A DNA stretch of 64,000 bases from Hufsiella arboris. Its GTDB lineage: Bacteria; Bacteroidota; Bacteroidia; Sphingobacteriales; Sphingobacteriaceae. Position 1 is the stretch's first letter, and every line of letters starts with the position of its first letter. Where the stretch lies: the NCBI RefSeq assembly GCF_009834875.1, contig NZ_WVHT01000007.1, forward strand, positions 186,001-250,000, given 5' to 3'. Of this stretch, positions 30,039 through 44,736 are shown piece by piece. Both the position numbers and the translations under genes were made by a program. The notes below the pieces were generated by a model. It had not been told where the DNA came from and did not search any database. It saw only the letters and a list, made by a program, of their open reading frames with translations.

Positions 30039-30203
30039 TTCTATCTCGCTAAGATAATTATTTCAAAACACTCAAAAGCCTTCAAATTTTACAGGTATTT
30101 GGTGTTTTTTCTTGCACTATAAGAGCTCGTTTTAGCTTTGTGACTAAGTATTCTTGCGCGGTAAAAGTTTGTTGTAGTATATTGAAAGTTAGCATTTTCA
30201 TAA

Positions 30204-30434
30204 AGTGTTCTTGTATCCTGAAAAAGTATTTCTGCGTCCCGGTGAAGTGTTCTTGCATCCTGAGAAAGTATATTCGCATCCCGGTGAAGTGTTCTTGCAT
30301 CCCTAAAAGATGTGCCAGCATTCCCAAAGAGTATTCCAGCATCCTCGAAAAGTGTTCTCTTATCCCCGAAATGTATGCTTGCATTCCAGCAAAGTGTTTT
30401 TTTATCCCGACAGAGTATTTTTCCATCATTGATT
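30204..30434. repeat. Minisatellite: 11 tandem copies of a 21-bp unit
   Basis: Eleven contiguous 21-bp units begin at 30204 and end at 30434 without gaps. The consensus is AGTGTTCTTGCATCCCGAAAA, and even- and odd-numbered copies differ in places (AGTATT.. versus AGTGTT..). Because 21 is a multiple of three, both strands stay open in three frames (30082-30453 and 30089-30550 on minus, 30140-30439 on plus), giving heptapeptide-repeat ORFs. None shows mainly third-position variation, so I treat the array as non-coding. It fills most of the 618 bp between the frameshifted gene and the GH92 gene; the rest holds the REP-like hairpin and the GH92 promoter. Confidence 0.9.
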
Positions 30435-30510
30435 CGTAGGCAAACCTCGCCATGACTCCGGCGAAAACCCATGTAAAAGCATTGTTTCATTGTCATACAC
30501 CCGATTGTTC

Positions 30511-30539: not shown

Positions 30540-32843
30540 ATGAAAAACACATCGATACTTACAGTACTTTTTTGCTCGTCAATTTTAAACGTTTCAGCTC
30601 AGCAAAAACCTTCCGGGAATCTTGTTCAATACGTGAAACCGATAATCGGAACCGCGAAAATGGGCCATACTTTTCCGGGTGCAACGGTGCCGTTTGGCAG
30701 CGTACAGCTAAGTCCGGAAACCGATACGCTTTCGTATGAATTGAACGGAAAGTATAACGGCGATGTTTATAAATATTGCGCCGGATATCAGTATGATGAT
30801 CCTACAATCGTCGGCTTTAGCCATACGCATTTCAGCGGTACGGGCCATTCCGATTTGGGAGATTTCCTGGTCATGCCGACAGTTGGAAAACTTCAGCTTA
30901 ATCCCGGAACAAAGGAACATCCTGAAAATGGTTATCGTTCTGCTTATTCTCATGCAAATGAAACGGCAGAAGCCAACTATTACAAAGTAAAACTTGATGA
31001 AAATAACATACTCGCCGAACTCACAACCACGACGCGGGTTGGATTTCATCAGTACACTTTCCCAAAAACAGATCAGGCACATATTATTCTTGATCTGATG
31101 GCCGGAATCTATAATTATGAAGATAAAGATGTGTGGACCTATGTGCGGGTTGTAAACGACAGCCTGATCACCGGCTACCGGCAGACAAATGGCTGGGCAC
31201 GTACCCGGACCGTATACTTTGCATTGTCATTCTCAAAACCGTTTAACCAATATGGCTGCCAGAACAACTCAAAAAGGCAAGTGTACCGCGGCTTTTGGGG
31301 CAAGTTCGATCAGTCCAAAAATTTCCCTGAGCTAGCCGGAAAACAGCTTCGGATGTATTTCGATTTTAAAACCAATGAGAACGAAAAGATTCAGTTGAAA
31401 ATGGCGCTTTCGCCGGTTAGTATGAGCAACGCTTTGGAAAATATGAAAGCGGAAATACCCGGCTGGGATTTTGAAGCGGTAAAAAAACAAGGCCAGGATC
31501 AGTGGAACAAGGAACTCAACAAGATAGTTGTCAGCACCACGCACAAGGAAGACCTGGTGAACTTCTATACGTCAATGTATCATGCGGCGTTAATGCCAAC
31601 TGTTTATATGGACGTGAACGGGCAATATAAGGGCCTCGACCAGGAAGTGCACATAGCAAAGGGCTTTGTCAATTATACTTCTTTTTCATTGTGGGATACT
31701 TTCCGCGCTTTTCATCCGTACCTGAACATCATTTCGCCGTCCCGCAATGCGGATATCGTTTCGTCTATGATGGCGCATTATGATCAGACTGCTATGCACA
31801 TGCTGCCGATCTGGTCGCATTATGCGAACGAGAACTGGTGTATGAGTGGCTACCACAGCGTTTCGGTGATTTCGGATGCGATCATCAAGGGAACTTATAA
31901 GGGCGATGAAAATGCTGCTCTTGATGCATGCGTAGCCACCGCAAAACACCGATCATTCGAAGGTTTGGGTTACTACATGGATATGGGTTACATACCTTCC
32001 GAGAAAAATGGTGTTTCCGTTTCCTCGACTTTAGAGTATGCCTATGATGACTGGTGTATTGCGCAGCTGGCAAAGAAGCTAAACAGGAAAGATGTTTATG
32101 AAGAGTTCAATAAGCGGTCCGAAAACTGGAAAAATGTGTATGACAAAGCTTCCGGATTCATGCGGCCAAGATTAAGCGACGGCAGCTTCCGCAAGAATTT
32201 TGATGTGTTAAAAACTGACGGACAAGGTTTTATAGAAGGCAACGCCTGGAACTTTAGCCTGTATGTGCCTCAGAATCCTGATGCAATGATTCAGATGATG
32301 GGCGGCAAAAAGAAGTTCGTTACACATCTCGATTCGTTATTTACCATGCATCTGCCGGATGAGTTTTTTGCTGAGACCGAAGACATCACCCGCGACGGCA
32401 TCATTGGAAACTACGTTCATGGAAACGAGCCGGCCCATCACGTAGCTTATTTGTACAATTTTACTGATCAGCCATGGAAAACCCAGTCGACCGTGAGAAT
32501 GATTTTGAACAAGCAATATCATAACGGCGCCGCCGGCCTTGGTGGAAACGATGATTGCGGGCAAATGAGTGCCTGGTATATTTTCAGCTCCTTAGGATTT
32601 TATCCGGTAGCTCCAGGTTCGGATAAGTATTACTTCGGTAGTCCGCTAGTTAAGTCGGCCACTATTACTCTTGAAAATGGAAAGACTTTTAGTATTACCG
32701 CGCAAAATCAAAGTGATAAAAATGTCTATGTTAAGCAGGTGATTTTAAATGGTAAACCGCTCGACAGGCTTTATATCACCCACGATGAGATTATGAATGG
32801 CGGTGTGTTGCAGTTCGTAATGAACGGTAAGCCGATCCGATAA
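30540..32843 (+). CDS. GH92-family exo-alpha-mannosidase
   Basis: Exported glycoside hydrolase family 92, a calcium-dependent inverting alpha-mannosidase family acting on N-glycan or yeast-mannan-type substrates. It has 767 residues with a signal peptide ending near VSAQ (residue 20). Family features: YVKPIIGTAKMGHTFPGATVPFG at the N-terminal domain, FSHTHFSGTGHSDLGD, the catalytic-region GNYVHGNEPAHHVAYLYN, and GNDDCGQMSAWYIFSSLGFYPV near the C-terminus. Size and motif order are complete. No SusCD pair is adjacent, so it is not in an obvious polysaccharide utilisation locus. Confidence 0.95.
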   Translation: MKNTSILTVLFCSSILNVSAQQKPSGNLVQYVKPIIGTAKMGHTFPGATVPFGSVQLSPETDTLSYELNGKYNGDVYKYCAGYQYDDPTIVGFSHTHFSGTGHSDLGDFLVMPTVGKLQLNPGTKEHPENGYRSAYSHANETAEANYYKVKLDENNILAELTTTTRVGFHQYTFPKTDQAHIILDLMAGIYNYEDKDVWTYVRVVNDSLITGYRQTNGWARTRTVYFALSFSKPFNQYGCQNNSKRQVYRGFWGKFDQSKNFPELAGKQLRMYFDFKTNENEKIQLKMALSPVSMSNALENMKAEIPGWDFEAVKKQGQDQWNKELNKIVVSTTHKEDLVNFYTSMYHAALMPTVYMDVNGQYKGLDQEVHIAKGFVNYTSFSLWDTFRAFHPYLNIISPSRNADIVSSMMAHYDQTAMHMLPIWSHYANENWCMSGYHSVSVISDAIIKGTYKGDENAALDACVATAKHRSFEGLGYYMDMGYIPSEKNGVSVSSTLEYAYDDWCIAQLAKKLNRKDVYEEFNKRSENWKNVYDKASGFMRPRLSDGSFRKNFDVLKTDGQGFIEGNAWNFSLYVPQNPDAMIQMMGGKKKFVTHLDSLFTMHLPDEFFAETEDITRDGIIGNYVHGNEPAHHVAYLYNFTDQPWKTQSTVRMILNKQYHNGAAGLGGNDDCGQMSAWYIFSSLGFYPVAPGSDKYYFGSPLVKSATITLENGKTFSITAQNQSDKNVYVKQVILNGKPLDRLYITHDEIMNGGVLQFVMNGKPIR

Positions 32844-32943
32844 TTGCCAGAATGAAGTAGGGTTTTTAAAAATTTGTGCAGGAGTTCACAGAGCTTCCAG
32901 GATTTATTGAAAAGCAAGGCCTTTCCATCCTTCGGCTGGTTCA

Positions 32944-33032
32944 GTCCCACTCTCCACTATAGTTTTTGCCATCAATGTGACTACTGTATGAAAGACAGGA
33001 TAAGCAAAAAGCTGCCGTTTCGATTGGGTTTA
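32944..33032. repeat. 89-bp dispersed repeat, copy A (structured)
   Basis: Aligns without gaps to 42590-42678 over 89 bp (about 56 identities), with conserved blocks GTCCC, TAGTTTTT, AAAAAGCTGCCG and GGGTTTA. TTTTTGC (pos 20-26 of the element) can pair with GCAAAAA (61-67). It lies in the 572-bp gap 32844-33415 between the 3' ends of two convergent genes. Otherwise that gap shows only a weak minus-strand ORF (33068-33310) with no recognisable domain. Confidence 0.72.
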
Positions 33033-33415
33033 AACAACTTCAGTCTATGCTTCTGGCAACATCCTGCTTAGTCGGAAGGACCGTTCGAATATATTCGGTA
33101 GTACCTCGTTGCACAATCCCAATCGACCGATGAAAAGCAAACCATTCGGCAGTAAACCCGACAGTAGGTAAAGCCCACAGCGAAGCGCTGGCTAGTAGTG
33201 TGCTGGTGCGAGGACTTGGACTGCATGGCGGGGCTGCAAATGCAAAACGTGATGAACGGCCGTTTCCAGTGTTCGCCAGAGCTTTTTAAGTTAACCGAAA
33301 TGCTGCTCACACTGATTTAATAAATATGAAGGTCAAAACACACAACTAATGAAAATCTACTAGATTATAAATTCATTGCGCTTCTAATAATTGATACTCT
33401 TTTTAAGGATCGTCT

Positions 33416-35965
33416 TCAATAAATCAACGCCACGTAACCTGATCTTACAACCGGATTTCCGCCCAGGTCTTTGGCCTTGATTACGTAATAATAAGTTCCC
33501 GTCGGGAGCGGCTGATTATTATAAGTTCCCTTCCAGTTATCGAAAATATTGCCGGTTTGGAACATTTCTACTCCGTAACGATTGAATATGCTGATGTGAT
33601 AATTGGCCAGATTTGTGACGTTTATAACAAATTCATCATTTACTCCATCGCCGTTTGGTGTAAATGTATTTGGAATAAATGTGGTGTTGTCGGCTCTTAT
33701 CACGAATTTTCCCTGGATAATAGAAGCAAAACATACGTTACTTTTAAATGCGGTAAGCGTTACTTCATATTCTCCGTTTATCTGGAATAAATGCTGCGGA
33801 TTTATTTCGGTGGAAGTACTACCATCTCCAAAGTCCCATAGATATGAATCGGCTTCGGTTGACTGGTTGAAGAATTGAATTAAGGCTGGGTTAGATAGCT
33901 TCGCCGGCAAAGCGGGGGATGAGGTAAATGAAGCAACCGGATTTTTGTAGATGGGAGGGACGGTTACGCTGACAATCTCACTGCTGCAGTTACCCTGTTT
34001 GATGAAAAGGTTATAAACGCCTGCTACACTTTCACTCGTAACCGGAATCGCAGGTGAAGGCTGATCGCTGACAAAATTATTAGGTCCTGTCCAGGTGTAT
34101 GTGGTGTTGGGGAGTAAATCTGTACTCAGGTGAATCGTGTCTTTCAAACAAAAATCAGGCTTATTAATAACAATTTTAGGCGTAGGAGGAACAAGGTCGA
34201 CATGCAGTATTTTCGTTAACACAACGGGACAGTTTCCGTTATTTTGCATCGTCAAGGTTATAACCTTATCTCCCGCTATCGTATAAGTAAGGTTAAAAGG
34301 GCCGTTTGTACGTGCCGTTCGTGTGCTTGCTCCCTCACCAAAATCCCAGTCTATCGAAGTAAAATCAACCGAATTATTGTTTATCTGGAAGCTTTGAGAG
34401 TTTGTACAGGGATTTAACGTGTTAATTTCAAAATTCGGAACTGGGGTAGTTAACGCCACAGGAACCACAATTGATGCTGCGTCGCTTACGCAGTTACCAA
34501 CGGCAACAGTTAAAGTATATGTGCCGGCTATCTGGTACGAGCTAACCGGAATAACGGGCGATTGCTGCGCGGAGGTAAAGTTGTTCGGGCCGGTCCAGTT
34601 GTAAACTGCGCCGGTAACCGCATTTGTGCTTAAAACAATGGAATCGCCGAGACAAAAGCGGGTTTTATTCAATGAGATTTGAGGTGTTGGCGGCTTTAAG
34701 CCTACTTCAAAAGTTTTGGATGCGATAGTAAAGCAGGATAGGTCGTTATGAGCTTCGAGAACGACTGTTTTTGTTCCGAGTGTATTATAGTGTACCGTCT
34801 CAGTGCCATTGGCGGAAGTTTGTATATCAGCCCCTTCGCCGAAGTTCCACACCAGGCGGGTTGTATTGGTAGACGTGCTTGTGAATGTATAACTTTGGTT
34901 AGGCAAACATTCGTTGTTAACAGCCATGTCAAATGACGCGTTAGGTCCTAAAAATTCCCCGGTACCTGCTTTACCGCTGGGATCTGTAAAGTCTATTGAG
35001 AAACCATTGTCGTTTCCCTGGAAGATATTTACCAAAAGCGCGTAAACATGGCCCGCCTGCATATCAACAGCTTTTAAAAACCCATTTTGCGTTGGAGAGC
35101 AACCAGATTGTTCATTCAGATCGTTCTCTGAAAAACTGAGCCCCGTCAAGTAATAAAAAGGTGTACAACCGACACCCCAGCCGGCAGCGCAACGGATGGC
35201 GTGTGCAGCATTCAGGTTTGCGCAGTTATCGGAAGTTCCAAGGTCATAAAGCACCCAGTCTATATCGCCGGTTTTTGAATCAAAAGGTGTTATCGTAAAA
35301 ACCAGCGAGCCGTCGTTCGCAGCAGTCCACTTATAAAAGGCTGAATTGATTTCGGCATTGCCGCCTGCCACGTCCAGGCAAGTTCCTGATCCTTCGTTAA
35401 TATTAGTTCCTATGCCGTGGATATTTATTCCTTTTACCTGCTCCTTACTGCATAAATAAGTAGCTGTGGAGCAATCGTGGCCCGGCTCGGGATTTGGCAC
35501 TGAGTTAGTAACGCATACCGAAAAAGATCCGGAATTCGCCCCGCTGACAGATATAAGATATCGCTGTCCGATAATTAAACCTCCGCGGTAAAATGTAGTT
35601 GAATTATTTTGTGTTGAAGTTGTGCCGAGTAAACCATTGGAAAGCGTACAGTCGCTGAACAAGCTGATTTTAGGCGATTGAAGTGTTCCGCCATCACCTG
35701 CTCCGGCCACGGTAATGTATAAATCATATCCATCGCGCGGAACAAACGAAAACCAAACGTCATTACCACTTCCGATAAAGCTCTCAGTGGCTCCATCTGT
35801 GCTGTAGGCGCCGTTTGCTGAACAAAATTGTTTGCCGCTTGGAATAGAAGTCGCTTGTGCACAATCATCATTTGCCGGCTGGGCAAACGCGGCTTGCAGA
35901 CTAATACATAAGACGGCGCTTAGAATCAATAAGTATTTAGCAAAGCATCGATAAGGCACAGGCAA
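33416..35965 (-). CDS. Large T9SS type-B substrate with PKD and Ig-like domains (CHU_C C-terminus)
   Basis: An 849-residue exported protein: signal peptide ending AFAQ (about residue 29), an N-terminal domain with ANDDCAQATSIPSGKQFC, an extended beta domain to about residue 340, alternating PKD domains (LVWNFGEGADIQTSANG; IDWDFGEGASTRTA; SYLWDFGDGSTSTEINP) and Ig-like modules (YNWTGPNNFTSAQQSPVIPV type), and a CHU_C domain (TPNGDGVNDEF to the end). The start is uncertain: frame starts are TTG at 35965 and GTG at 35959, with no ATG before the signal peptide. A perfect 18-bp palindrome lies just upstream. Secreted by T9SS and retained on the cell surface; ligand unknown. Confidence 0.9.
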   Translation of the reverse strand: MPVPYRCFAKYLLILSAVLCISLQAAFAQPANDDCAQATSIPSGKQFCSANGAYSTDGATESFIGSGNDVWFSFVPRDGYDLYITVAGAGDGGTLQSPKISLFSDCTLSNGLLGTTSTQNNSTTFYRGGLIIGQRYLISVSGANSGSFSVCVTNSVPNPEPGHDCSTATYLCSKEQVKGINIHGIGTNINEGSGTCLDVAGGNAEINSAFYKWTAANDGSLVFTITPFDSKTGDIDWVLYDLGTSDNCANLNAAHAIRCAAGWGVGCTPFYYLTGLSFSENDLNEQSGCSPTQNGFLKAVDMQAGHVYALLVNIFQGNDNGFSIDFTDPSGKAGTGEFLGPNASFDMAVNNECLPNQSYTFTSTSTNTTRLVWNFGEGADIQTSANGTETVHYNTLGTKTVVLEAHNDLSCFTIASKTFEVGLKPPTPQISLNKTRFCLGDSIVLSTNAVTGAVYNWTGPNNFTSAQQSPVIPVSSYQIAGTYTLTVAVGNCVSDAASIVVPVALTTPVPNFEINTLNPCTNSQSFQINNNSVDFTSIDWDFGEGASTRTARTNGPFNLTYTIAGDKVITLTMQNNGNCPVVLTKILHVDLVPPTPKIVINKPDFCLKDTIHLSTDLLPNTTYTWTGPNNFVSDQPSPAIPVTSESVAGVYNLFIKQGNCSSEIVSVTVPPIYKNPVASFTSSPALPAKLSNPALIQFFNQSTEADSYLWDFGDGSTSTEINPQHLFQINGEYEVTLTAFKSNVCFASIIQGKFVIRADNTTFIPNTFTPNGDGVNDEFVINVTNLANYHISIFNRYGVEMFQTGNIFDNWKGTYNNQPLPTGTYYYVIKAKDLGGNPVVRSGYVALIY

Positions 35966-41314: not shown

Positions 41315-42505
41315 TTATATTTTTTTAGCAGTAATCCTTCCATTGTTGAAAGATAAAATTTCGTTTTCGCTGTCTTTGATAATGAAATTTGCCGGTTGTT
41401 CAATCGCCAGGGGTGTTTCAGTGACTATATTTAAAGCGGAAATATCGTACTCCTCATATCCGAAAAAACCCGATAAGTCACCCATATCTTCAATCCGGTA
41501 AACATAAGAAATAGCTGAATTGCTGATTATTCGTTCAGCAACCAGTCCGATATCTATAACTGCGTTATTTATCCGGCAATTTTTCAGAAGAATAGAGAAG
41601 TGCCTTTTTTCGTTAACCGGCAACTGCTCATAGCTTGAAACATCAGGTTCGCCAAAATCGGCGCCAGCTATCGAATAAACACCTGTCAGCATAGCAATAA
41701 ATACAATTTTGCGCACGAACTGCCGGTCAAAGTCGTCTTTGTATCCGCCTGATTCGACAAGCAGGGTGCTGCTGCCCGCTGCCTGGCAATTGTCGCCAAA
41801 AGCCCGGGGTTCAAATTCATCGAACCATTTGCCGATATATTTGGGGATATAAGTTTGCAGAACATCATTAATGTTTGTAGCAAGTTGCATCGCCTTTAAG
41901 CGCGTATCGTTAACAGAGCATGCATCATCGTATGGCGGAGCTAAAAGCGAGATCGTTGCCGGATTTCCCGATTTCCCTGCGCTCCACTGAATGCTTTGGT
42001 CATGCAGGTTGAATGAAAAGTCTGGCTTGATATTCTCGTGAAACAAGCGCAAAATTCTCCCTTCCGGAGATTGCTGGGCCAGATAATCACGATTGATGTC
42101 GATACCTTGTGCATTTCGACGGGTATTCAACTCAGCGCCGTCCGGGTTTAAAAAAGGCAGGATATAAAATGTACAGTTGTTAAGTATAAGATGCCTGACT
42201 TTGTTGAATTCGTCGTCTGCTGAAAAGAAGTTAAGTAAATCAAATAAAGCCATTGTCGCGGTCGGCTCATCGCCATGCATCTGGCTCCAGAGCATAACGC
42301 TTTTTGATCCGGAGCCGGCCTGGATGGAATAGATGGGCCTTTGCAAAAAGGAACTGCCGACTTCCCCGATTTTGAATAACGGATTTTCCCAAAGCTTTTT
42401 TATTTCCGCTTCAAATTGCGAAAATTGAATATAGTTCGAACCAAACGAAGTATTAAGAAAATCGGATTCATAGTTATCTATTATGGGCTTAAGCTTATGC
42501 GGCAT
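41315..42505 (-). CDS. M14-family zinc carboxypeptidase
   Basis: A 396-residue metallo-carboxypeptidase. Zn-ligand motif H-x-x-E is in SQMHGDEPTATMALFDLL (His/Glu), the second His in FSFNLHDQS, and the active-site Glu in LLVESGGYKDD. No signal peptide is obvious, so it may act in the cytoplasm or have a non-classical export. RNAQGIDINRDYLAQQSPEGR fits the family arginine/aspartate substrate-anchoring segment. The C-terminal about 100 residues are an extra beta domain. It is upstream of the SpmAB gene by 27 bp. The ATG at 42505 is used. Confidence 0.9.
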   Translation of the reverse strand: MPHKLKPIIDNYESDFLNTSFGSNYIQFSQFEAEIKKLWENPLFKIGEVGSSFLQRPIYSIQAGSGSKSVMLWSQMHGDEPTATMALFDLLNFFSADDEFNKVRHLILNNCTFYILPFLNPDGAELNTRRNAQGIDINRDYLAQQSPEGRILRLFHENIKPDFSFNLHDQSIQWSAGKSGNPATISLLAPPYDDACSVNDTRLKAMQLATNINDVLQTYIPKYIGKWFDEFEPRAFGDNCQAAGSSTLLVESGGYKDDFDRQFVRKIVFIAMLTGVYSIAGADFGEPDVSSYEQLPVNEKRHFSILLKNCRINNAVIDIGLVAERIISNSAISYVYRIEDMGDLSGFFGYEEYDISALNIVTETPLAIEQPANFIIKDSENEILSFNNGRITAKKI

Positions 42506-42589
42506 AAATAGCCAAAGTAATAAATTCGCGAATACTTCTCAAAACTGACAAATTTTGGAAAGCATGTTTCTTCGTTATCGGTTTCGATA

Positions 42590-42678
42590 GTCCCTTGTTC
42601 CGCTGTAGTTTTTACCGTTAGCGGCATCGCTAAAATAAAATCTGCACCGGTAAAAAGCTGCCGCTTCACCAGGGTTTA
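42590..42678. repeat. 89-bp dispersed repeat, copy B (structured)
   Basis: Same length and order of conserved blocks as 32944-33032. In this copy TTTTTACCG (element positions 20-28) pairs fully with CGGTAAAAA (59-67), whereas copy A pairs TTTTTGC with GCAAAAA; the change at element positions 25/62 from G-C to A-T keeps pairing. It is located between the M14 gene start and the 3' end of yidC; the remaining 384-bp gap also holds a terminator (42840-42869) and no gene. Confidence 0.72.
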
Positions 42679-42839
42679 TTGTACGCGGGGCAAACTTTCA
42701 TGGTAAAGGAACCGGTCCAACGTTGAAAGTTGAGCAATGACCGTCCGGCCTAAACCGGATCGAAATGGACATCTTTTAATAAATGAACATTTAAAATCGA
42801 CAAGCAGAAAACTGCCTTTTACGCTAAATAACCGCAAAA

Positions 42840-42869
42840 AAAAATGCTTACCATTCGATAAGCATTTTT
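42840..42869. terminator. Terminator of yidC (bidirectional-looking)
   Basis: An 11-bp stem (AAAAATGCTTA 42840-42850 with TAAGCATTTTT 42859-42869) and an 8-nt loop. On the minus strand the stem is followed by a long T tract (complement of A run 42836-42844). It lies 20 bp beyond the yidC stop. Confidence 0.9.
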
Positions 42870-42888
42870 CAATAATAACATATAAATT

Positions 42889-44736
42889 TTACTTCTTTTT
42901 CGCCGGAGTCGTCTTTGTCGGAGTTGTTTTCGCAGTTTGCTGCTGTTGTCTCATGTAATCTTCCATACGTTTCTGGAAGCCGGATTTTTTCTTTTCCGCA
43001 GCGGGTTTTTTCTTGTTTTCCTGTATCTGCGCATGGATTTTATCATCGTTCACAAAACTACGGATGATAAATTGCTGCCCGAATGTAAGCATGTTGGCAA
43101 GGAAATAATAATAATTCAGGCCGGAAGGGTAGCTATTCAATACGCCGAAGAAGATGATCGGAGAAATATACCCGATATATTTCATCTGGCCTGTAGCGCC
43201 CGAAACCTGGTTGTTAAAATATGTATAGATCAGCGTCGAAATTGTCATCAGGATACACATTAAACTTATGTGATCCATGTTTAACAACGGAATTTTAGGG
43301 AAAGTGATCAACGCGTCATACGTCGAAAGGTCCTTCATCCATAAAAAGTTTTCCTGGCGCAGTTCAAACAGGTTAGGGAAGAAGAAGAAGAACGCCATTA
43401 CAATCGGAAGCTGCAACAACATGGGTATACAGCCGCCAAGCGGATTTACGCCGGCCTTTTTGTATAATTTTAGATATTCCTGTTGTAATAAAGTAGGATT
43501 ATCTTCGCCAACTTTGCCTTTAATTTCATCCATCTCCGGCTTCAATACTTTCATTTTCGCCATCGACAGGTACGATTTGTACGTCAGCGGCGAAAGTGCC
43601 AGTTTCAGAAGAATAGTGAGAACAAGAATAATAAGACCATAATTCCAGCCAAAACCGTTCAATAAATTAAACACAGGAAGTACTATGAACCTATTTACAT
43701 ATTTCAGAGGCCAGTAGCCCATATCAATCTGCTGTTCAAGATCAAAGCCTTGGTCCTTAAGTGTGCTGTACTTGTTCGGTCCGAAATAAAATTCCAGCGG
43801 ATAAGCGCTTACATCGCTACGGCTAAAAGGAAGCTGCATGTTAGCAGCATATGATTTAACCATACCGGGTATTGTCAGTACATTATTTGCGATAGTTCCT
43901 TTTTCGAAACCATTTTTAGCGATCAATACGTTTGAGAAAAAGTGCTGTTTGAATGATATCCACTGCACTTTTCCGTCCTCGCCAAGATCTTTTTTATCAT
44001 CCTTGCTAACGCTTAAGTGGTCAACCTCTCCATCGCCGTGTTTGAAATAGGCGGAAGAATAACGCTCTTCGTATTTAATATCCTTTTCTTTTTGCGGAAG
44101 AACGGTTTCCCAGTTTAGCACAAGGTTTTGCTGCGTGGCCGCTACGACATCCTGCATGCCTTTGGTGGCGATCGTCAGGCCAACTTTATAGCTGTTGCCT
44201 TTAAGAGAATAGATGTAATCGATATATTTTCCTTCGGCATAGGTTAAACGCATGGTTACCGACGAGGAATCATTTTTAGAAACGTTTACAGATCCTGATG
44301 AAGGAGTGAAATACAAATCGTTTGTAGAAATGTTAACGCCGGCCGAGTTGAATAATAAGCCGAATTTATTAGCATCGCCGCTGAACATAATCAGCGGTTT
44401 TTTGTCGTAAGTTTTAAATTCTTTCAGTTCAACCGATTCGATGCGGCCGCCTTTTGAACTTAAATTAACCTTAATAAGTTCGTTTTCAAGCGTTATATTT
44501 TGATTGGTTCCAGCATGTGCAGCTCCAAAAGGACCCTTTAGAACCGAAGAATCAACAACTGCCGGTTTGCTGGCCACCTGGCTTTTGACAGCTGGTTTGC
44601 CTTGCTGAACCCGTGCAATTGAGTCTTGCACAAATTTTTCACGCTTTATCTCCTGCTCATTGGGCTTTAAAAAGAACGTAGAGGCAACAATAATAACAAG
44701 GATCAAGAAAAGACCCGTAAATGTATTTTTATCCAT
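42889..44736 (-). CDS. yidC: Membrane protein insertase YidC
   Basis: A 615-residue inner-membrane insertase. The N-terminal signal-anchor (TFTGLFLILVIIVASTFFL) is followed by the periplasmic domain (about residues 60-345), typical of Gram-negative YidC. The C-terminal conserved five-helix core contains YGLIILVLTILLKLALSPLTYKSY, LLQQEYLKLYKKAGVNPLGGC and PIVMAFFFFFPNL. The C-terminal tail is Lys-rich (KKPAAEKKKSG, KTTPAKKK). It follows pyrG by 11 bp, a usual Bacteroidota pairing. Confidence 0.97.
   Translation of the reverse strand: MDKNTFTGLFLILVIIVASTFFLKPNEQEIKREKFVQDSIARVQQGKPAVKSQVASKPAVVDSSVLKGPFGAAHAGTNQNITLENELIKVNLSSKGGRIESVELKEFKTYDKKPLIMFSGDANKFGLLFNSAGVNISTNDLYFTPSSGSVNVSKNDSSSVTMRLTYAEGKYIDYIYSLKGNSYKVGLTIATKGMQDVVAATQQNLVLNWETVLPQKEKDIKYEERYSSAYFKHGDGEVDHLSVSKDDKKDLGEDGKVQWISFKQHFFSNVLIAKNGFEKGTIANNVLTIPGMVKSYAANMQLPFSRSDVSAYPLEFYFGPNKYSTLKDQGFDLEQQIDMGYWPLKYVNRFIVLPVFNLLNGFGWNYGLIILVLTILLKLALSPLTYKSYLSMAKMKVLKPEMDEIKGKVGEDNPTLLQQEYLKLYKKAGVNPLGGCIPMLLQLPIVMAFFFFFPNLFELRQENFLWMKDLSTYDALITFPKIPLLNMDHISLMCILMTISTLIYTYFNNQVSGATGQMKYIGYISPIIFFGVLNSYPSGLNYYYFLANMLTFGQQFIIRSFVNDDKIHAQIQENKKKPAAEKKKSGFQKRMEDYMRQQQQTAKTTPTKTTPAKKK

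Follow-up and report, generated by a model that had tools for sequence, protein, structure and literature searches.

The window, a 64,000-nucleotide stretch of the Hufsiella arboris genome (contig NZ_WVHT01000007.1, positions 186,001 to 250,000), contains two non-coding sequences of 89 bases each, at 32944-33032 and 42590-42678, which align without a gap and are identical at 56 of 89 positions. Two convergent ORFs (30540-32843 on the plus strand and 33416-35965 on the minus strand) flank copy 1 with their 3' ends. Copy 2 has yidC (42889-44736, minus) on one side and, on the other, the start of an M14-type peptidase gene (41315-42505, minus), both gene names being read from the translations alone. 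When both strands of the window are scanned, copy 2 is the top ungapped match to copy 1, with the runner-up at 41 identities. The best window matches of 300 first-order Markov surrogates of copy 1 average 42.1 and never exceed 48, so that a chance similarity of the two copies can be rejected. The ungapped 89-bp similarity described in the initial annotation is thereby confirmed, and the four conserved blocks that it named are all present in the alignment. The weaker TTCGG-type similarity that it reported upstream is present too, but it is part of the same repeat, which extends outward to about 32904 and 42552. Elsewhere in the window, open frames at 30082-30453 repeat a GMQEHFTGM-like peptide, which suggests that a short tandem repeat lies upstream of a mannosidase-like gene.

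Both copies are Flavo-1 hairpins (Rfam RF01705) on the minus strand, and each of them is an arm of an intergenic inverted-repeat element; the initial annotation, otherwise partly supported, had missed the known family as well as the larger element. Copy 1 corresponds to an RF01705 match at 32939-33035 (minus) of 45.8 bits, which passes the cut-off of 42. Copy 2 alone stays under this cut-off (minus strand, E 1.1e-5 for 301 bases searched), yet it resembles the other arms. The consensus stems and purine-rich internal loops that mark Flavo-1 membership are found in the alignments and in the pair and loop counts. The complete element is an inverted repeat of 263-381 bp, composed of a TTTTGAAA-type end, a linker, the Flavo-1 hairpin, a spacer and a second, facing arm. 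At the two loci, the following features can be distinguished, with R1 denoting a model of the arms:

32904..33033, minus strand: first arm of copy 1, with terminal TTGAAAAGC motif, linker and Flavo-1 hairpin (RF01705, arm HMM; R1 81.4 bits, the arm being in the R1 training set)
33034..33151, no strand: inter-arm spacer of copy 1, between two R1 matches
33152..33272, plus strand: second arm of copy 1, inverted and more degenerate (R1 38.7 bits, E 2e-5, the arm being absent from the R1 training set)
42552..42679, minus strand: arm of copy 2, with terminal TTTTGGAAAGC motif, linker and Flavo-1 hairpin (RF01705 33.8 bits; R1 73 bits, the arm being in the R1 training set)
42751..42776, plus strand: possible, weak remnant of a partner arm for copy 2, TAAACCGGATCGAAATGG (matching arm HMM positions 95-120 with E 0.28 for the whole window)
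42843..42868, minus strand: hairpin and T-run behind yidC, in the interval from this gene to the copy 2 element, judged by eye to be a terminator

With both arms, the copy 1 element spans 32904-33272 (369 bp), and its G/A-rich strand, the one displaying the G.A mismatches, is the minus strand. Its second arm is also detected by the arm HMM, at 33153-33265 (E 0.018 for the whole window). The same model places the arm of copy 2 at 42554-42678; the putative remnant of its second arm is not among the R1 matches at E<=10 in the window. The hairpin behind yidC was not listed by the terminator scan, which listed another minus-strand site at 42817-42802, with 0.8 such sites expected by chance for the region.

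The host genome harbors many further arms. In its 4.8 Mb (G000), at least 58 Flavo-1 matches reach E<=1 and at least 35 lie above the cut-off, both numbers being floors, as scoring covered 150 of 961 candidates and the resulting list lacks the two copies of the window. Beyond the hairpin, the similarity of these copies continues outward through their flanks to a terminal TTTTGAAAACGAA, TTTTGGAAAGCA or TTTTGAAGCGCAA motif. A sequence-only arm profile was seeded from stretches that Rfam and BLAST hits had supplied, and it was run on such stretches as well; in 168 kb of them it gives 101 hits, of which 92 are near-full, setting a minimum of 92 near-full arms for the genome. The hits form 29 facing pairs, most of them with gaps of 57-95 bp (a stricter rule, with three loci added, again gives 29), and solo arms are also common. 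Searching with the terminal motif yields 35 hits versus 8 for the reversed control; 15 of the 35 have no locus and do not enter the scan. Among the 13 further loci scanned, five carry well-formed arms (L376, L378, L380, L381, L388), and three of these five have facing pairs; the facing pairs measure 285-361 bp. L377, which was already among the arm-profile hits, shows weak partial arms, and the remaining seven loci, all of them two-mismatch hits, have no arm. Arms in this genome often come as facing pairs with a common terminal motif. A different inverted repeat (AATGTCATTAAGTAAAG ... CTTTACTTAATGACATT) interrupts an arm at L377.

The equal length of the two copies, which had been taken, together with the conserved blocks, as an argument for selection on a structure or for a mobile unit, carries little weight, since the 92 near-full arms of the genome span 94 to 138 nt, owing to a variable hairpin top. 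Across L001-L071 and the arm alignment (A2), this top takes the form of a small number of interchangeable modules (TTTTTTG..CAAAAAA, CCGGCC..GGCC, CCCC..GTGAGGAG), as though copies had exchanged their apical parts.

Arms lie between genes of every relative orientation. According to crude ORF calls, 59 arm blocks are distributed over 35 tandem, 12 divergent and 9 convergent ORF pairs, with 3 undecided; none of the 59 lies inside an ORF of at least 250 codons, under a rule that dropped shorter ORFs overlapping the blocks. Within the family, arms occur in at least 54 of 121 sampled genomes and at least 13 of 25 genera (up to 28 candidates scored per genome). Across the phylum, Flavo-1 is found in at least 44 of 296 genomes and at least 23 of 140 genera (up to 15 candidates scored per genome). 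The search for further copies in the host genome and its relatives, proposed in the initial annotation, was thus run and successful in both, and the suggested many-copy intergenic family is real.

Comparison of the individual arms allows for a closer look at what is conserved. The alignment comprises 86 arms, that is the 92 near-full ones minus six, mostly look-alike tandem neighbours. RNAalifold predicts 11 pairs in this alignment, 10 of them with changes on both sides. Of 943 cells, 95.2% are paired, compared to 69.0% in shuffles, and slid versions of the alignment likewise fall far below the real pairing. Changes on both sides of a pair are seen in 234 cells (62 in shuffles), and one-side changes in 4. 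These counts strongly support selection on a structure, which had been offered earlier as one of two explanations. Standard pairs are almost exclusively Watson-Crick (892, with 6 G-U among the total of 898, read on the G/A strand). A.C mismatches number 23, of which 12 fall in the weakest pair; a reading on the other strand gives 2.5% wobble.

In addition to the pairs, three G.A mismatches are kept, in 73, 83 and 84 of the 86 arms (the last as 63 A.G and 21 G.A), and two further loop positions are less conserved, with A.G in 55 and 32 arms. The pairs neighbouring the kept mismatches take up to four Watson-Crick types, and the outer unpaired motifs TAAAC, GGGACT and TTTTCAAAA are conserved as well. 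A second set, 60 of the 71 profile hits from the phylum-wide search, comprises 54 copies from family f4, one from f3 and five that were not traced, with most f4 genomes in one genus, probably Flavobacterium. In this set, 658 of 660 cells are Watson-Crick and 2 are G-U, in copies taken from the top of a covariance ranking and hence biased to perfect pairs. Its mismatch positions are kept in 60, 59, 56, 60 and 34 of the 60 copies, the lowest value belonging to the last loop position. At 19 phylum-wide loci inspected, the hairpin is present without the terminal motif. The hairpin is conserved by base pairing, and fixed purine (G.A) mismatches between short Watson-Crick stems mark one of its strands.

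Such a conserved fold could reside in a transcript or in the DNA itself. Rfam files Flavo-1 as 'Gene; sRNA', the table of Weinberg et al. 2010 enters the Flavo-1 RNA motif as RNA 'y' and cis-regulatory 'n' (PMC2864571), and a review counts it among the most abundant sRNA families (PMC9029176). According to the accessible part of an F. psychrophilum transcriptome study, several 5' transcribed regions coincide with Flavo-1 hits; the hits are sense or antisense alike with no consistent strand, many lie outside transcribed regions, and the paper drew no function from them (PMC9723704). The accessible parts of the literature naming Flavo-1 contain no treatment of it as DNA and no function since 2010. 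The Flavo-1 family is known, and its paired architecture and its reading as DNA are, as far as our searches show, new. The arms share the stems, the purine internal loops and the end sequences of the described motif. They differ from it in belonging, in this genome, to a paired inverted-repeat element that ends in a terminal motif, and in pairing nearly without G-U; copy 2, moreover, stays under the cut-off.

To put the rarity of G-U into perspective, we counted pairs in RNA controls, in which wobble amounts to 18 of 174 pairs (stems of 8 tRNAs from related genomes) and 31 of 237 pairs (an intrinsic terminator in 20 of 21 genomes, from a spacer of a genus that is probably Pedobacter, which also carries an arm). 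The samples behind both controls are small; all 20 terminators are orthologous to one another, and minimum-energy folding, from which their pairs were taken, accepts G-U freely. Fisher tests of arms against tRNAs and terminators give 1.5e-10 and 1.1e-16, with cells that are not independent. A positive control of other palindromes, with 5 sequences, is too small. DNA energies favour the fold of the G/A strand over that of its complement in 68 of 86 arms and 58 of 60 copies, RNA energies in 43 of 86 and 46 of 60. As RNA, copy 1 is no stabler than its shuffles (z +0.79 on the plus and +0.24 on the minus strand), and copy 2 is stabler (z -2.84 and -2.43). The pair states are mixed, with 54 combinations of 7 pairs among the 86 arms and 18 combinations of 5 pairs among the 60 copies. 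The scarcity of G-U relative to the RNA controls, the mixed pair states and the preference of DNA energies for the G/A strand make a DNA fold the likelier one, and we consider it more likely than not that the selected fold is DNA and that the element works like REP or MITE repeats.

Extending this to the whole family, we tentatively suggest that Flavo-1 may be a phylum-wide DNA hairpin element rather than an RNA: strand-specific, strictly Watson-Crick, stabilized by sheared G.A motifs, organized in this lineage into facing pairs that have a terminal motif of their own, and served by a putative partner protein for folded single-stranded DNA. The hairpin would be extruded from supercoiled DNA or would form on DNA that is single-stranded during replication or repair. 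A candidate protein would then bind it, reading the stems together with the G.A motifs; this might be an enzyme that resembles a single-strand-DNA transposase and works in trans, much as RAYTs do for REPs, or else a protein with an architectural role. On this view, the element would act like a REP/BIME or MITE repeat, with any transcription through it being incidental. If Flavo-1 is indeed a DNA element, annotations and sRNA counts built on it are misleading, and the question arises which protein binds the fold. Counting G-U pairs costs little and could also be of use in telling RNA from DNA among other orphan 'RNA' motifs.

The opposing view, that Flavo-1 is a structured non-coding RNA (an sRNA or UTR element), as Rfam has it, which spread by duplication, can draw on that filing, on covariation that is real, on the preference for one strand in the arms and on the 5' transcribed regions of F. 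psychrophilum that coincide with hits. RNA commonly has purine-rich internal loops with G.A pairs, which also speaks for it. Low G-U could moreover stem from a protein-bound RNA, in which 2-bp stems beside G.A pairs are intolerant of wobble. It is opposed by the rarity of G-U in the arms, set against 10-13% in the small RNA controls, and it agrees poorly with arms between divergent ORFs, with the Pedobacter spacer, where the arm sits between the intrinsic terminator and the next start codon, and with the inconsistent strand and many untranscribed hits in F. psychrophilum. We regard it as rather unlikely.

A DNA element raises the question of mobility, the second explanation offered in the initial annotation. 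The inverted-repeat architecture and the dispersal fit a mobile unit; against it, target duplications are marginal, no transposase is linked, no two of the 86 arms are 90% alike, and one arm has kept its place in 16 of 21 genomes. For the 29 pairs, the shared flank word averages 3.10, versus 2.59 +- 0.21 in 500 shuffles with a maximum of 3.24. More specifically, the element might be a MITE, a non-autonomous DNA transposon bounded by terminal inverted repeats and mobilised in trans by a putative DDE-type transposase. It resembles MITEs in being short, gene-free and dispersed between genes and in having inverted terminal motifs, that is terminal inverted repeats, and the common motif at the outer ends of facing arms, the number of facing pairs, the excess of terminal-motif hits over the reversed control and the arms at five of the 13 further loci all agree with this. 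It departs from MITEs in that each arm holds a covarying hairpin, with conserved stems and G.A mismatches that DDE ends do not need, in the marginal target duplication, in the lack of a gene-bearing version or autonomous partner at the loci inspected, and in the abundance of solo arms and the seven armless loci. Taken together, we find the MITE explanation quite improbable. A larger transposon with the same ends can be rejected, since no gene lies between arms at the loci inspected and facing pairs of 285-361 bp are too short for a transposase gene.

The arms also resemble REP, REPIN and BIME repeats, which are intergenic, many-copy hairpins with conserved mismatches, often in inverted pairs (PMC3733652). 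The hairpin of the arms is much longer, though, and the GTAG (or CGTC) foot of the 20-40 bp REP/REPIN palindrome is absent, with TAAAC on one foot and GGGACT on the other. Twenty arm-bearing genomes give 80 Y1 transposase matches, and arms lie within ~1.5 kb of Y1/RAYT (PF01797) genes at 4 of the 72 loci inspected (0 of 6, 2 of 28 and 2 of 38), compared to ~3 expected by chance (estimated from 60 arms per 4.5 Mb). The first six are those of G000 and G001, with a best E of 0.3. An arm of G104 (L406, 1193-1309) lies within ~300 bp of a RAYT-like gene, the nearest among the 38 loci, and is compatible with chance. A REP mobilised by RAYT is rejected for lack of linkage at these 72 loci. RAYT-like Y1 genes of this genus carry short palindromes of their own; those of G000 (L159, L161, L163) and G001 (L160) have beside them, for example, GCACTCGTTGCAAACGAGCGC and GCGGATTAAAAATCCGC, which are unlike Flavo-1. 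We file the element as neither REP nor MITE because features that define them either were absent when tested or gave no clear answer.

Integron attC sites, which are imperfect palindromes whose single strand folds strand-specifically, offer a further likeness, and their core motif is GTTRRRY/RYYYAAC. The arms differ from them in having no such core at their ends in the arm alignment and in being dispersed rather than set in a cassette array.

It is highly improbable that the arms are passive palindromes, lacking function or partner, whose perfection is maintained by quasipalindrome correction during replication or repair: this would explain Watson-Crick double changes without intermediates, and local tandem and inverted copying does occur, but such correction would also remove the G.A mismatches, and three of these persist in 85-98% of the 86 arms; the outer unpaired motifs are conserved too.

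The unit is old and retained. Its present mobility is doubtful because there are no recent copies among the 86 arms and one arm was long kept in place, namely that of the Pedobacter spacer (genus g13, assigned by inference), which 16 of 21 genomes show at E<0.01. The other five genomes have no detectable arm, with flanks too changed for a clean empty site, and the same applies to arms upstream of a mannosidase-like gene at some Pedobacter loci. In a comparison of close species for empty sites, 400 kb of G112 contained one arm, common to G083, which has one more partial match, in a non-aligning spacer. One Flavo-1 copy searched against phage and plasmid collections gave no match.

Local copying takes several forms. 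Tandem arrays of arms with a period of 305-331 bp are present in G087 and G060. In G080, an arm-bearing block of ~530 bp (L245:3336-3869 and L245:7033-7564) recurs inverted across a hemA-like gene; its long pieces are 95 and 98% alike, which identifies it, judged by sequence likeness, as a recent local copy. In several genomes, the hairpin top at the Pedobacter spacer is, by eye, another palindromic sequence, with the foot kept. At this spacer, other palindromic repeats (TCATGCTGAGG..., AAACCTATAAGGTTT...) lie inside the Flavo-1 loop in L257, L268, L272 and L243, and in L269 another palindromic repeat takes its place.
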